A DNA stretch of 64,000 bases from the NCBI RefSeq assembly GCF_003586285.1, contig NZ_QUBR01000001.1, positions 496,001-560,000 of the forward strand, read 5' to 3'. The notes beneath the pieces are model-generated. The model saw only the letters and a program-made list of their open reading frames with translations, searched no databases and was not told the DNA's origin. Shown in pieces: positions 9,591 through 23,009 of this stretch (position 1 is the first letter of the stretch; each line of letters opens with the position of its first letter). Both the position numbers and the translations under genes were made by a program. The stretch comes from Aeromicrobium endophyticum (lineage in GTDB: Bacteria > Actinomycetota > Actinomycetes > Propionibacteriales > Nocardioidaceae).

Positions 9591-10907
9591 CTAGCTCGCG
9601 GGGACGGCCTGGGCGGCGGCGCGCGCGGCGTTCGGCAGAGCCGCGGCAATTGTAGAGAGTGCCTGGTCGTCGTGGGCAGCCGAGACGAACCAGCACTCGA
9701 AGGCGCTGGGCGGCAGGTAGACGCCGGCGTCGAGCATCGCGTGGAAGAAGGGCTTGTAGCGCCACGCCTCCTGCGACTGCGCGCCGGCGAAGTCGGTCAC
9801 CGGCCCGTCGACGCCCCAGAAGACGCTGAACATGCTGCCGGCGTTCTGCAGCGCGTGGGCGACACCGGCCTCGACGAGCGCCTCGGTGACCATCGACTGC
9901 AGCTGCTGCGATGCCGCGTCGAGACGGCCGTACGCCTCGTCGTCGGCGAGCCGCAGGGTCGTGAGGCCCGCCGTCGTCGCGATGGGATTGCCCGACAGCG
10001 TGCCTGCTTGGTAGACGGGGCCGGACGGGGCGAGCTGCTCCATGACGTCGCGACGTCCGCCGAAGGCCGCGGCCGGGAAGCCACCGCCCATGACCTTGCC
10101 GAACGTGACGAGATCGGGCGCCCAGCCCTCGCGCTGCCCGTCGAGGCCCCAGTGGCCCGACCGCGTGACGCGGAAGCCCGTCATGACCTCGTCGCTGATG
10201 AACAGCGCGCCGTGGCGGGCGCACGTCTGCGACAAGAACTCGTTGAACCCGGGCTCGGGCGGGACGACGCCCATGTTGCCGGCCGCCGCCTCGGTGATCA
10301 GGCAGGCGATCTGGTCGCCGTGCTCGGCGAAGGCCGCCTCGACCGCCGCCCGGTCGTTGTACGGCAGGACGATCGTGTCGGCGGTGACGTGGGCCGGCAC
10401 GCCCGGCGTCTCGGGCAGCCCGAGCGTCACGACGCCCGAGCCCGCCTCGGCGAGCAGCGCGTCGACGTGACCGTGGTAGCAGCCGGCGAACTTCACGATC
10501 TTGTCGCGGCCGGTGAACCCGCGGGCCAGCCGGATGGCCGACATGGTGGCCTCGGTGCCCGACGAGACCATGCGCACCATCTCGGCGGACGTGCGCGCGA
10601 CGATCTCCTCGGCGAGCAGCACCTCGGGCTCGCTGGGCGTGCCGAACGACGTGCCGCGGGCAGCGGCCGCACCGACCGCAGAGATGACCTCGGGGTGGGC
10701 GTGGCCCAGCAGCATCGGGCCCCACGAGCCCACGAGATCGACGTAGCGACGCCCGTCGACGTCGGTGAGCCAGGCGCCTTCGCCGGACGCCATGAAGATC
10801 GGCGTGCCACCGACGGCCCGGAAGGCCCGCACGGGCGAGTTGACCCCGCCGGGCGAGACGGCACGGGCGCGCTCGAAGAGATGCTGCGAAGCAGGAGAGG
10901 ACGTCAC
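9591..10907 (-). CDS. hemL: Glutamate-1-semialdehyde 2,1-aminomutase
   Basis: A 438-residue PLP enzyme making 5-aminolevulinate, the first common tetrapyrrole precursor, from glutamate-1-semialdehyde produced by HemA (encoded at 15963). Conserved segments: [12 protein letters not shown] at the N terminus, [16 protein letters not shown] near 123, the PLP-binding aspartate in [10 protein letters not shown] near 240 and the PLP lysine in [18 protein letters not shown] near 270. Length is normal. A GACAAT box 6 nt before the GTG suggests a leaderless transcript. It heads the cytochrome c maturation operon. Confidence 0.95.
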
Positions 10908-10913
10908 GGCTCC

Positions 10914-10919
10914 ATTGTC
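10914..10919 (-). promoter_or_regulatory. Probable leaderless -10 box for hemL
   Basis: GACAAT on the minus strand, 6 nt before GTG 10907. It keeps the A and T at positions 2 and 6 of the TANNNT consensus but has G at position 1. Confidence 0.4.
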
Positions 10920-10957
10920 CCGCGCCGCCCAACCGGGCCCGACGGCGGCGTCCCGCT

Positions 10958-10986
10958 CGTAACCTCCCGGGGCTCCGGGTCGTTGA
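10958..10986 (+). promoter_or_regulatory. BldN-type ECF sigma promoter
   Basis: CGTAAC (10958-10963), 17 bp, CGTTGA (10981-10986). This matches the -35/-10 pattern I recall for sigma BldN of Streptomyces. The same arrangement, including the following CT (CGTAACCT-N15-CGTTG), lies before the DUF5667 gene next to the BldN-like sigma gene in this window. It would give a leader of about 100 nt to the lytic transglycosylase gene at 11093. Confidence 0.65.
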
Positions 10987-11092
10987 TCGTGTGTCGTGCG
11001 CCACGGGCGAGGTGGCCGCCGACGTTAATCGCCGGTAACATCGGTTTACGCACTCGGCATGGACGCGGATGTCGAACTGGGAGGGTGGACAC

Positions 11093-12313
11093 ATGGGGGC
11101 TCGCAAGCTCACGCGCTGGCAGAAGGCCGGCGCACTCGTTCCGATGGGCGTGCTCGTGGTCGCCTGGGGCGCCGCGCTCGGCAACTCGGGGCTGGCGACG
11201 GCCTCCGACGGCATCGCCGACTCCGACATCCCCGACGTGCCCGCCACAGCCTTCGAGCAGCCCGCCAGCGTCCAGCAGACCCCTGCCGGCGTGCCGGCCG
11301 GCGTCGACCAGAAGGCCGGTGCCGCCGGCACCGTCGCCACGCTGTCGACCAACGGCATCCCCACCTCGGCCCTGTCGGCCTACCGCCGCGCCGAGACCCT
11401 GCTCGGCAAGGCCGACGAGAAGTGCCACCTGCCCTGGAACCTGGTCGCGGCGATCGGCCGCGTCGAGTCCAACCACGGCCGCAGCAACGGCAACGCGCTC
11501 GACTCCGACGGCATCGCCCAGCCCGGCATCTACGGCGTGCCGCTCGACGGCAACGACGGGCGGGCCAAGATCGGTGACACCGACAGCGGTGCCCTCGACA
11601 AGAACTCGGTCTTCGACCTGGCCGTCGGCCCGATGCAGTTCATCCCCGGCACCTGGAAGTCCGTCGGCGTCGACTCCGACAACGACGGCACCAAGAACCC
11701 CCAGAGCATCAACGACGCGGCCACGTCGGCCGGCATCTACCTGTGCGCGGGTGAGGGCGACCTGGCCAAGACCTCCGACGCGGCAGCAGCGGTCAAGCGC
11801 TACAACAACTCCGACGCGTACGTCGACCTGGTGCTCAAGATCTCGGCGGCCTACGCCAACGGCGACTTCACCAAGTCCCCCGACGGCATGTCGACCTCGC
11901 CGGTCCTGACGTCCTCGTCGAGGGACCAGACGCTGACCCCGGCCCAGCGCGACCGCGCCGCCACGTCGCAGAAGAAGGCCGAGAAGAAGGCTGCGGCCCC
12001 CAAGAAGACGGCCAAGCCGTCGAGCACGAACCCGACGAAGGCACCGGCGGGCGGCGGTTCAGGCAGCGGCAGCCCCAGTGGCTCGGGTGACGGTTCCAAG
12101 CCGACCCCGACGCCGTCGCCCACCAAGAAGCCCAGTGGAACGTTGGGGGGCGGCATCCAGGACGGCGTCAAGGACACCCCTCTGGCGCCGATCACCGAGC
12201 CCATCACAGGCTTGCTGGGCTTGACCGAGGCGAACCTCCGCTGCGGTCTGCAGTTCCCCCTCGGTCTGCCGAAGGACAAGTTCGACGCCTGCGTCTACGA
12301 CCTCATGCACTGA
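11093..12313 (+). CDS. Secreted lytic transglycosylase
   Basis: A 406-residue cell-wall hydrolase. An N-terminal hydrophobic segment (about residues 13-32) acts as signal or anchor. The catalytic domain spans about residues 95-265, with the presumed catalytic Glu in AIGRVESNHGR (near 125) and GPMQFIPGTWK further on, the pattern of MltB-like/SLT_2 transglycosylases that cleave the MurNAc-GlcNAc bond. The C-terminal third is a low-complexity Pro/Lys/Ser/Gly linker and a short conserved end. ATG 11093 follows a GGGAGG site. Expression may depend on an ECF sigma promoter at 10958. Confidence 0.85.
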   Translation: MGARKLTRWQKAGALVPMGVLVVAWGAALGNSGLATASDGIADSDIPDVPATAFEQPASVQQTPAGVPAGVDQKAGAAGTVATLSTNGIPTSALSAYRRAETLLGKADEKCHLPWNLVAAIGRVESNHGRSNGNALDSDGIAQPGIYGVPLDGNDGRAKIGDTDSGALDKNSVFDLAVGPMQFIPGTWKSVGVDSDNDGTKNPQSINDAATSAGIYLCAGEGDLAKTSDAAAAVKRYNNSDAYVDLVLKISAAYANGDFTKSPDGMSTSPVLTSSSRDQTLTPAQRDRAATSQKKAEKKAAAPKKTAKPSSTNPTKAPAGGGSGSGSPSGSGDGSKPTPTPSPTKKPSGTLGGGIQDGVKDTPLAPITEPITGLLGLTEANLRCGLQFPLGLPKDKFDACVYDLMH

Positions 12314-12387
12314 GCGCTGACGCACACGACGAGGGGCCCGGTTCTGACGAACCGGGCCCCTCGTCATGTGATCGTGTGCGTCAGCGC
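12314..12387. terminator. Nested bidirectional terminator
   Basis: Inner 17-bp perfect stem 12328-12344/12349-12365 with loop TGAC. An outer 16-bp pair, GCGCTGACGCACACGA (12314-12329) with TCGTGTGCGTCAGCGC (12372-12387), surrounds it. It separates the convergent transglycosylase and hemB genes; the outer right arm contains the hemB stop and its last codon. Confidence 0.9.
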
Positions 12388-13355
12388 AGGCGTGCTGCCA
12401 GCTCGGCCGCCCAGTACGTCAGCACGATGTCGGCGCCGGCCCGGCGGATCGACACGATGATCTCGTCGATCGCGCGCTCGCGATCGATCCAGCCGTTGGC
12501 CGCCGCGGCCTCGACCATCGCCAGCTCGCCGGAGATGTTGTAGGCCGCGACCGGAACGTCGACCGCCGCACGCACGTCGGCGATCAGGTCGAGGTATGAC
12601 AGGGCCGGCTTGACCATGACGATGTCGGCGCCTTCCTCGATGTCGAGGAGGGTCTCGCGGATAGCCTCGCGTCCGTTGGCGGGGTCCTGCTGGTACGTCT
12701 TGCGATCGCCCTGCAGCGACGAGTCGACGGCCTCGCGGAACGGACCGTAGAACGCCGACGAGTACTTGGCCGCATAGGCCAGGATGACGGTCTCGTCGTG
12801 GCCCGCATCGTCGAGCGCGGCGCGGATCGCGCCGACCTGGCCGTCCATCATGCCGCTGGGGGCGACGACGTGCGCGCCGGCCTCGGCCTGCACGACACCC
12901 ATCTGCGCGTAGATCTCGACCGTGGCGTCGTTGTCGACGCGGCCCCGTGCGTCGAGCACGCCGCAGTGTCCGTGGTCGGTGAACTCGTCGAGGCACAGAT
13001 CGGCCATCACCAGCAGGTCGTCGCCGACCTCGGCCCGTGCGTCGGCCAGCGCGACGTTGAGGATGCCGTCGGGATCGAGCGCGCCCGAGCCGGTGGCGTC
13101 CTTGCGCTCGGGCAGGCCGAACAGCATCACGCCGCCCAGCCCCAGCTCGGCCGCCTCGGCATACGCCCGCCGCGCGCTGTCGCGCGTGTGCTGGACGACG
13201 CCCGGCATGCTCGCGATCGGACGCACCTCGGTGCGTCCCTCGGCCACGAACATCGGCAGCACGAGCTGCGACGGCTGCACGTGCGTCTCGGCCACCAGCC
13301 GCCTCATCGCCGGCGACGAGCGCAGGCGACGAGGACGGTCGGCAGGAAACGACAT
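12381..13355 (-). CDS. hemB: Delta-aminolevulinate dehydratase
   Basis: A 324-residue porphobilinogen synthase that condenses two 5-aminolevulinate molecules. The Schiff-base lysines are in [15 protein letters not shown] (near 195) and [13 protein letters not shown] (near 248). The metal region reads [19 protein letters not shown] (near 118): the central Cys of the zinc-type triad is replaced by Asp, a mixed pattern. ATG 13355 is 5 nt after the cobA/hemD stop. Final gene of the rex-hemA-hemC-cobA/hemD-hemB operon. Confidence 0.95.
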
Positions 13356-20999: not shown

Positions 21000-21701
21000 G
21001 TGACTTCACGTTGGGGCATGCTGCGCGGCGTCGTGTCGCTGGCTCTGGCGATCCCGGACGACCGTTCACTCCTCGTGGCGCTCGCCGTCGCCGACTCCCC
21101 CGCCTACGCGCCGTCGTCCGGCGGCCACACGCCGCGCGACGACAGCGATCCCGAGGCCACCCGCCTGCGAGCCCTCGTCGACCTCGCCAAGGAGGGCGAC
21201 GCCGATGCGTTCGGCCAGCTGTACGACCACTACGTCTCCGGCGTCTTCCGGTTCGTCTACTACCGCGTCGGCTCGCAGCAGCTGGCCGAGGACCTCACCA
21301 GCGAGACGTTCGTGCGCGGGCTCCGCGCGATCCAGCGATTCAACTGGCAGGGCAAGGACTTCGGGGCCTGGCTGACGACGATCGCGCGCAACCTGATCGC
21401 CGACCACTTCAAGTCGAGCAGGTCGCGCCTCGAGATCGTCTCCGAGACGATCCCCGAGAGCAAGACCCACGCACCGAGTCCCGAGCAGGAGGTCCTGTCG
21501 CTGATCTCCAACGAGATGCTGTTCGCCGCGGTGTCCTCCTTGCCGCCCGAGCAGCGCGACTGCATCCTGATGCGCTTCATCCAAGGACTGTCGATCGCGC
21601 AGACGGCAGCGGCCCTCGGTCGCAGCGAGGGTGCGATCAAGCAGCTCCAGCTGCGCGCCGTGCGCAGCCTGGCCAAGTCGATGCCGGACGACATCCGATG
21701 A
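21000..21701 (+). CDS. ECF sigma factor, BldN-like
   Basis: A 233-residue sigma-70 family protein. Region 2 spans about residues 70-135 (FGQLYDHYVSGVFRFVYYRV; EDLTSETFVRGLRAI), region 4 about 173-225 (LPPEQRDCILMRFIQGLS; ALGRSEGAIKQLQLRAVRSL). About 50 residues precede region 2, including a hydrophobic patch; Streptomyces BldN also carries an N-terminal pro-sequence removed by proteolysis. GTG start follows GGGAGG. The next gene encodes a probable membrane anti-sigma protein and has a matching ECF promoter. Placement beside rex-hem genes matches Streptomyces. Confidence 0.85.
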   Translation: MTSRWGMLRGVVSLALAIPDDRSLLVALAVADSPAYAPSSGGHTPRDDSDPEATRLRALVDLAKEGDADAFGQLYDHYVSGVFRFVYYRVGSQQLAEDLTSETFVRGLRAIQRFNWQGKDFGAWLTTIARNLIADHFKSSRSRLEIVSETIPESKTHAPSPEQEVLSLISNEMLFAAVSSLPPEQRDCILMRFIQGLSIAQTAAALGRSEGAIKQLQLRAVRSLAKSMPDDIR

Positions 21702-21736: not shown

Positions 21737-21765
21737 CGTAACCTTGACTGCTGCGCCGTCGTTGT
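21737..21765 (+). promoter_or_regulatory. BldN-type ECF promoter before anti-sigma gene
   Basis: CGTAAC (21737-21742), 17 bp, CGTTGT (21760-21765), giving a leader of about 45 nt before ATG 21817. The sigma factor would drive its own antagonist, a usual feedback. It is almost identical in design to the site at 10958-10986. Confidence 0.65.
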
Positions 21766-21816: not shown

Positions 21817-22893
21817 ATGATCGGCCGTCGCTCCCACGACGACGCCCAGCAGCTCGCCGACGCGCTCGACGGTCGCACGCCGACCGACGCCGGGGTCGCC
21901 GAGCTGGTGCGCTTCGCCGAGAGCCTGTGCGAGGCCGCGACGGTCGAGCCCACGCCGATGTTCCGCGAGTCGTTGCGGGCGCAGCTGATGGCCGATGCCG
22001 CCACGGTGCTGGTGCCCGCTTCCCCGGCCCCCCGACCCATCGCCACCGACCGCGCACCCGATCGTCCTGCCCGGCGCCGGCTCGCGACAGCGACCGCGGT
22101 GCTCGTGGCCTCGGCCGGTGCGGTCGGCCTCGTGGCCTCCAGCGCCTCGGCCGTGCCCGGCGAGATGCTCTACCCCGTCAAGCGAGGCGTCGAGTCCGCC
22201 GAGCTGGCCCTGCACCGGGGCGACGCCTCGCGCGGAGCCTTCCAGCTGGCCCAGGCCTCCGAGCGGCTGGCCGAGGCCCGGGCCCTCAGCGCCGACGGCC
22301 GCTCCCCCGAGCTGATCGCCCAGACCCTCGACGACTTCGCCGCCTCGACCGTCACCGGGTCGAGCAAGCTGTTCGACGACTACTCGACCAACGGGGCCAC
22401 GAAGTCCGTCCGCGAGGTCAACAGCTTCGCCGCCACCTCGAGCCTCAGCCTGTCCGAGCTGTCCGGCGAGCTGCCGGACGGCGTCGGCGACTCCCTCGCG
22501 GCGGCCAGCGCGGCCGTGACCGAGGCTGCCACCCAGGCCGCGACGCTGTGCGCGAGCTGCGAGCCGGCCGACGTGGGCGCCTTGTCGTCGATCGCTCCCC
22601 TGGCCAAGGCCCTCCCTGCCGTCGTGCCCACCCGAGACACCGCCACCCGGGCTGCGCCGCCGGCGTCGTCGCCGCGCATCACGCCGCCCGCCACCCCGAG
22701 CTCGTCGCGCTCCGCGACCCCGGCGCCCACGCCGACCCGCGTCCTGCCGTCGCCTGCCACGACCACGCCGCCCGTGTCGCCGCTCGCGCCGCTGACCGAC
22801 CCCCTGCTGGGCGGACTGCTCGGCGACGACGACCAGGTCGGCCTCGTGCCGGGCCTCGTCAACGGCCTCCTCGGAACCACCCCGAAGCCGTAG
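21817..22893 (+). CDS. DUF5667 protein, probable anti-sigma factor
   Basis: A 358-residue single-pass protein. About 88 cytosolic residues precede one hydrophobic helix (about 90-112), then SAVPGEMLYPVKRGVESAELAL, the hallmark of DUF5667. The outer domain ends in a long Pro/Thr/Ser linker (about 265-325). It follows a BldN-like sigma gene, and the cytosolic N domain is the expected sigma-binding part, as in Streptomyces RsbN. No HxxxCxxC zinc motif of ZAS anti-sigma factors is present. Function as anti-sigma is inference from position and topology. Confidence 0.7.
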   Translation: MIGRRSHDDAQQLADALDGRTPTDAGVAELVRFAESLCEAATVEPTPMFRESLRAQLMADAATVLVPASPAPRPIATDRAPDRPARRRLATATAVLVASAGAVGLVASSASAVPGEMLYPVKRGVESAELALHRGDASRGAFQLAQASERLAEARALSADGRSPELIAQTLDDFAASTVTGSSKLFDDYSTNGATKSVREVNSFAATSSLSLSELSGELPDGVGDSLAAASAAVTEAATQAATLCASCEPADVGALSSIAPLAKALPAVVPTRDTATRAAPPASSPRITPPATPSSSRSATPAPTPTRVLPSPATTTPPVSPLAPLTDPLLGGLLGDDDQVGLVPGLVNGLLGTTPKP

Positions 22894-22921
22894 AGCGAGC
22901 AGGCCCAACCTGGCCCGAACG

Positions 22922-23009
22922 GTGACCAAGGGCCGAGCGAGCGCAACTCGGCCCAACGCGGTGACCATCGGCCGAGCGAGCGCAACTCGGCCCAACGCGG
23001 TGACCAAGG
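22922..23009. repeat. 39-bp tandem hairpin repeat
   Basis: Starts GTGACC at 22922, 22961 and 23000 give a 39-bp period. Two full copies contain a hairpin of GGCCGAG or GGGCCGAG pairing with CTCGGCCC around the loop CGAGCGCAA. The third copy runs into the element at 23008. The copies differ at AAGG versus ATCG. Lies between convergent gene ends. Confidence 0.8.

Follow-up and report, generated by a model that had tools for sequence, protein, structure and literature searches.

A BldN-type sigma factor in Aeromicrobium very probably activates the gene of a wall-cutting enzyme along with further surface genes

The window analysed here, a 64-kb stretch of the Aeromicrobium endophyticum genome, carries on its forward strand a gene for an MltB-like lytic transglycosylase (SLT_2; 11093-12313), which is preceded by a promoter-like site. 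This site comprises a putative -35 element, CGTAAC (10958-10963), and a putative -10 element, CGTTGA (10981-10986), the latter with a T directly before it. The start of the gene is most likely the ATG at 11093 and not that at 11069, because its orthologues align from MGARKLTRWQ and a likely ribosome-binding site, GGAGGG, is found at 11080-11085. The distance between promoter site and start is thus 108 bp, and within the predicted leader an alignment of 30 upstream regions revealed a second conserved element, GTAACATCGGTTTAC (11035-11049). When the window was scanned with Rfam, nothing passed the gathering thresholds, thus no known riboswitch was found 5' of the enzyme gene. The encoded protein carries a hydrophobic segment at its N-terminus and a tail rich in Pro, Thr and Ser. 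It matches PF13406 (SLT_2) with 41.1 bits at a cut-off of 24.3, a partial match that covers profile positions 155-196 of 292, while the NCBIfam MltB models scored far under their cut-offs and a PDB search delivered nothing at E ≤ 0.01. Peptidoglycan cleavage is the predicted activity of the enzyme.

A second region of the window contains a gene for a BldN-type ECF sigma factor (21000-21701, forward strand), which starts with GTG at 21000 or ATG at 21018. Its best model by far is TIGR02952, the curated model of the BldN family (E 4e-54). However, the curated cut-off was not reached (183 against 206.45 bits), and we consequently refer to the protein as BldN-type instead of assigning it to BldN itself. 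The closest solved relative is BldN of Streptomyces venezuelae (6dxo_A, E 2e-53, next best 1e-18), with 92 of 149 aligned residues identical (62%). Among named organisms, its nearest relatives belong to Aeromicrobium (family Nocardioidaceae). In Actinomadura and Nocardioides, the genes hemD-hemC-hemA-rex and a glutaredoxin-like gene are kept near the sigma gene, and we take a hem-rex order to surround bldN of Streptomyces as well. A membership of BldN in group ECF56 was also considered, and is ruled out by the available text of PMC7730460.

Directly behind the sigma gene follows a gene of the DUF5667 type (21817-22893, forward strand; Pfam DUF5667). Its product is predicted to comprise N-terminal helices, one membrane helix, an outer DUF5667 helical bundle and a Pro-rich tail. 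In a structural model, helices 5-17, 25-40 and 47-64 are of moderate and helix 87-109 of low confidence, and a hydrophobic segment begins at residue 89. A profile of the N-terminal part found RsbN in 6dxo as best PDB match, although weakly (E 0.0064). The chain matched bears the label BldN, and a swap of the names BldN and RsbN occurs likewise in the available text of PMC7406223. The single sequence, in contrast to the profile, gave just one meaningless PDB match, and a fold search with the model against solved structures yielded nothing at E ≤ 0.001. Taken together, the DUF5667 gene probably encodes a membrane-bound anti-sigma factor of the RsbN type that is directed against the adjoining sigma factor, and its outer domain would be the obvious place to seek a signal. 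Two side observations concern this gene. The stretch directly 3' of it (22895-23000) holds near-identical repeated units (GGCCGAGCGAGCGCAACTCGGCCCAACGCGG), and in the tails of both the rsbN-like protein (22780-22893) and the transglycosylase (12200-12313) a Pro-rich region is followed by a short stretch with GLLG, which may be due to chance.

Both regions share one motif. Scanning either strand of the window for CGTAAC-N15..18-CGTTG returned two sites, at 10958-10985 and at 21737-21764, each with a spacer of 17 nt if counted from CGTAAC. The motif corresponds to the published BldN consensus CGTAACN16CGTTGA, for which bldM was then the sole known site (PMC2375139, available text). The second site is flanked by the end of the sigma gene (21701) and the start of the DUF5667 gene (21817) and therefore is the likely promoter of the DUF5667 gene, which would allow for feedback. 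Similarly, a BldN-dependent promoter is reported for rsbN of S. venezuelae itself (PMC4255298, available text). An earlier note on this DNA had described the pair as the only such sites in the window, one of them next to a BldN-like sigma gene; this observation is right, and positions and letters of both sites agree with those it gave. In 100 dinucleotide-preserving shuffles of the window the pattern never occurred; the observation is far beyond chance. The genome-wide scan that the note had proposed was performed with spacers of 15-18 and gave 6 sites in 4.03 Mb, while the reversed motif, which served as control, gave 0. Five of the six are located 53-87 bp 5' of a called same-strand gene start, and these precede envelope-related genes or the rsbN-like gene: the transglycosylase, the DUF5667 gene, an ABC ATPase, an NAD-dependent sugar epimerase and a glycosyltransferase. 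The last two were named via Pfam. The ATPase is of the MlaF/Mkl type (NCBIfam MlaF is its best model, under the cut-off) and is followed by an open frame that is MlaE-like by its resemblance to locus L243; we infer an mce-type system. The sixth site falls within a gene that we take to be RNase J-like and is probably a chance match. Chance matches in a GC-rich genome might be assumed for the other sites as well. Yet the shuffles, the reversed-motif controls, the conservation and the spacing described below all oppose this explanation, the conservation of the two window sites being the very outcome that refutes it, and we give it a negligible probability.

The site before the enzyme gene is strongly conserved. 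An enzyme match was detected in 39 of 41 genus genomes; 35 of the 39 have a clear orthologue (at least 59% identity), while the others are relatives at about 36-43%. All 35 orthologues are preceded by the site (30 exact, four with one and one with two mismatches), 110-136 bp 5' of the aligned start, whereas among 9000 shuffled genus upstream regions none matched exactly and 0.6% matched with at most one mismatch. At 30 genus loci, CGTAAC reaches 1.8-2.0 bits per base and TCGTT, identical in 30 of 30, reaches 2.0 bits, while the flanks mostly stay below 0.8; since the sites were chosen as best match, these values favour the motif, an effect that the shuffles bound. Outside the genus but within the order, 55 of 79 genomes with an enzyme match were fetched (37 of family f1, which is all of them, 17 of f3 and one of f4). 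Here 48 of 55 loci carry the site with at most one mismatch, compared to 0.25-0.35% of shuffles; in detail, 18 are exact, 30 deviate at one, three at two, three at three and one at five positions. The 17 Kribbella-like loci of f3 all deviate at one position (CGTTA) and carry little independent weight, as they are near-identical to one another. Five of the seven loci that lack the site at this threshold belong to sigma-positive genomes, and no site precedes the enzyme gene of the sigma-less order members G119 and G122. Furthermore, in genus g10 no enzyme was detected in six genomes that possess the sigma gene, given the threshold applied. Class-wide, 13 further enzyme loci were examined, two of which are second copies in f1 genomes and lack the site. 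The 11 homologues from outside the order, nine of them with a gene call, include one with the site (G221, exact), while those of the sigma-positive genomes G182 and G242 are without it. In G221 the sigma and enzyme genes are about 1.1 Mb apart, in the genus member G014 about 0.7 Mb, and in both the site is kept. Thus gene neighbourhood does not explain the motif. The site is conserved and very probably functional.

A similar picture emerged behind the sigma gene. Out of 79 named loci, the 42 actinobacterial ones were surveyed and 37 from other phyla left out; 28 have an exact site upstream of rsbN, eight deviate at one, three at two and three at three positions. Within the genus, where the locus was fetched for 30 of 34 sigma-positive genomes, 25 of 30 sites are exact and five of 30 are one-off, with a spacer of 17 throughout. 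In the class outside the genus, 19 of 27 are exact and eight of 27 one-off, based on 27 of 54 sigma-positive genomes, six of them from family f1.

If the sigma factor uses promoters of the CGTAAC-N16-CGTTGA type, the number of sites should depend on the presence of its gene, and the genome comparison points to this. The gene was found in 34 of the 41 Aeromicrobium genomes examined. Four genus members that are at least 99% complete (G006, G007, G018 and G040) possess neither the sigma gene nor an orthologue of the enzyme, and they contain 0 sites even if spacers of 15-18 are allowed. In family f1, the 45 sigma-positive genomes comprise 275 sites (2-14 each) against 8 controls, while the seven sigma-negative genomes from three genera comprise one site against three controls; one of the sigma-negative f1 genomes (G056) has no enzyme match at E 1e-40. 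The 49 genomes of family f2, without a sigma match at E 1e-20, have 23 sites against 67 controls. Three genus members are less complete or irregular. G029 has no sigma match yet three sites, which is likely an assembly gap because its hem contig stops before the expected sigma position. G001 and G017 are 82-83% complete and lack sigma factor and enzyme; G001 has two sites against five controls and G017 none against two. One might speculate that another ECF sigma factor of the same cell reads these promoters. However, the four near-complete genomes without the BldN-type sigma factor have zero sites, and a site with at most one mismatch stands directly behind the sigma gene in 57 of 57 genus and class loci. 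We consider this alternative very unlikely.

The four sigma-less genomes allow a closer look at the joint absence of the sigma-rsbN pair and the transglycosylase. From the cytochrome-biogenesis genes up to the HAD gene, every gene of their heme locus is conserved in place, bar two changes: no enzyme gene separates hemL from hemB, and two other genes lie between rex and the glutaredoxin-like gene (L265-L268), one of which presumably encodes a membrane acyltransferase. Behind the HAD gene, sigma and rsbN are absent and other genes are found instead. Since the window's next genes past the HAD gene are absent from the fetched stretches of these genomes, this end may represent a wider rearrangement. 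A hemA tree, built from 30 genus members with 5 outgroup rows, unites the four genomes in one clade (SH-aLRT 100). Consequently, the joint absence may reflect a single history.

Sites across the genus suggest that the enzyme does not stand alone. From the 210 sites of the genus scan, 101 were classified. This sample deliberately omits the majority of rsbN and enzyme sites in the genomes chosen and the majority of draft-genome sites, and eight of the sites listed for G023, G009 and G032 are not part of it. By gene calls, 76 of the 101 are intergenic, and 65 of the 101, all among these 76, are located at most 200 bp 5' of a same-strand start, compared to 5.6% of random positions in the same loci. 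A spacer of 16 or 17 was found in 57 of 60 distinct start-proximal sequences, while for sites that fall within called genes the number is 10 of 25 (Fisher p ~1e-7). This serves as an internal control, since chance would not favour one spacer. Some of the ten in-gene sites with such a spacer are probably real, as they lie 88-133 bp 5' of recurrent genes in a frame that was over-called.

Clustering, which admitted six sites overlapping called frames, gave 22 families of predicted targets in the genus, the enzyme being one of them; most are surface or secreted proteins. Besides the epimerase (8 genomes), the ABC ATPase (6) and the glycosyltransferase (4), these comprise an S15-type secreted hydrolase (6), a subtilase (5), a lipase-like protein (5), a Flp pilin (3) and FlbD (2). 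Two more families bear names of our own assumption, a presumably maleylpyruvate-isomerase-like protein (5) and a presumably flippase-like protein (3), the latter without Pfam match. A further secreted-protein family occurs in three genomes, and LPRTG was seen in two of the three. A signal-like or membrane segment is present in 16 of 22 target families compared to 17 of 64 window genes, a contrast obtained by a simple and crude hydrophobicity rule in which near-relative genomes were counted more than once. LPXTG-type ends (LPHTG, LPRTG) were observed in the predicted targets L027:409-669, L273:1-1482 and L015:1569-3026, with a full sorting signal in L027, while L273 and L015 end at the edge of the fetched stretch. 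Such targets recall the sortase-anchored chaplins of Streptomyces. In the related genomes G037 and G010 (L024, L250), the motif stands 47 bp 5' of the flagellar FlbD-like gene. Beyond a core, the members of the predicted regulon appear to vary from species to species. The earlier proposal that this sigma factor controls peptidoglycan cleavage gains support, as the site is conserved and tracks the sigma gene, while it was drawn too narrowly: the enzyme seems to be one member of a surface regulon.

The second leader element raises the question of who else might govern the enzyme gene. The element at 11035-11049 reads GTAAC-N5-TTTAC, with GTTAC in many species, and thus comprises GTNAC-like half-sites 10 nt apart. 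With few exceptions it is kept throughout the 30 upstream regions that were aligned, while the sequence 3' of it is little conserved, and the leader element is the sole exact copy of GTAACATCNGNTTAC in its own genome. Its conservation suggests a further layer of control. The enzyme might even be mainly under another promoter or regulator acting at this element, such as an MtrA-like response regulator, with the sigma promoter being minor. The half-sites are indeed like those of MtrA boxes, and MtrA binds 5' of the mycobacterial rpf and ripA genes (PMC6265350, available text). However, the mycobacterial repeat as given there implies a distance of 11 nt instead of 10, an objection softened by one Streptomyces MtrA site that is shorter by one nucleotide (PMC5650626, available text). 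Besides, a scan of 10900-12500 detected no sigma-70-like promoter, little is conserved after the element, and the enzyme is absent from the four sigma-less genomes, which argues against control mainly through this element. We therefore regard this possibility as unlikely.

The same half-sites prompt another question, since CGTAAC contains GTAAC and could itself be half of a response-regulator box built from MtrA GTNAC repeats instead of a -35 element, with CGTTG being secondary. A second GTNAC does occur inside some spacers of the Nocardioides type and of Aeromicrobium. In contrast, the spacers of the two window sites contain none, TCGTT is conserved as strongly as CGTAAC, the spacing is held at 16 or 17 and the sites accompany the sigma gene. 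For these reasons MtrA was rejected for the main GTAAC site, and a response-regulator box appears highly implausible.

Thus we return to the BldN-type sigma factor. With high confidence we propose that RNA polymerase with the sigma factor of 21000-21701 uses 10958-10986 as a promoter, that this factor is subject to feedback through rsbN and that it serves a cell-surface regulon. While the sigma factor is free, transcription would begin near 10993, some 7-10 nt past the -10 element. This would yield a leader of about 100 nt followed by the lytic transglycosylase. The same sigma factor would transcribe the adjoining DUF5667 gene from the second site, and the product of this gene, most likely a membrane-bound anti-sigma factor of the RsbN type, would bind it and limit the output by negative feedback. 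Besides peptidoglycan cleavage, the regulon would cover the import of lipids, sugars of the cell surface, pilin and proteins that are secreted or anchored to the wall. As far as genome sequences can tell, it is very probable that a BldN relative activates this wall-cutting enzyme together with other surface genes in Aeromicrobium.

The wider outcome is the predicted surface regulon of a BldN-type sigma factor in a genus that is not known to sporulate. Members of Aeromicrobium are rods and are not known to form aerial hyphae. A survey from 2013 found convincing BldN relatives confined to genera of complex morphology; Nocardioides and Kribbella were each represented by one genome, Nocardioides was classed as mycelial and sporulating, and Aeromicrobium is absent from its available text (PMC4255298). 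In contrast to this restriction, a BldN relative with a predicted regulon is present in most Aeromicrobium genomes. The titles and abstract openings of the literature searched make no link between BldN and a transglycosylase, which may be in print elsewhere. The BldN switch may thus be a general cell-surface regulator and not a sporulation device alone. One might go further and assume that BldN-RsbN is at root a general actinobacterial surface-remodelling system with anti-sigma feedback as its fixed core, that its standing output in Propionibacteriales is the wall-cutting enzyme and that Streptomyces re-used this older switch for aerial growth instead of inventing it for that purpose; to us the chances of this broader idea are evenly balanced. 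If true, wall cutting would be tied to the display of pilins, sugars and wall-anchored proteins. The sigma-less clade provides a natural control, the role of BldN before aerial growth becomes testable outside Streptomyces, and a sigma factor is predicted to link wall cutting with surface display.

Compared to known systems, the one described here is closest to sigma-BldN and RsbN of Streptomyces. It resembles them in sequence, in promoter consensus and in an adjoining putative anti-sigma gene with its own BldN-type promoter, as well as in the heme/rex neighbourhood, which is seen in Actinomadura and Nocardioides and presumably holds for the Streptomyces gene order. BldN of Streptomyces is needed for aerial growth and activates the chaplin, rodlin and bldM genes. 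In contrast, the host lineage considered here is not known to form aerial hyphae, and the targets predicted for it comprise a wall hydrolase, functions in lipid import and surface sugars, pilin and secreted proteins. The putative anti-sigma factor is like class III anti-sigma factors of the RsbN type in its three predicted N-terminal helices followed by one membrane helix, with RsbN as best PDB match. However, the sequence similarity is weak (E 0.0064), and the model with the DUF5667 bundle has no match among solved structures at E ≤ 0.001. Finally, the system is like mycobacterial MtrA in that genes of peptidoglycan-cleaving enzymes are targeted and GTNAC-type half-sites occur in the leader, while MtrA is a two-component response regulator and the regulator proposed here a sigma factor, and the spacing of the second element is off by one.
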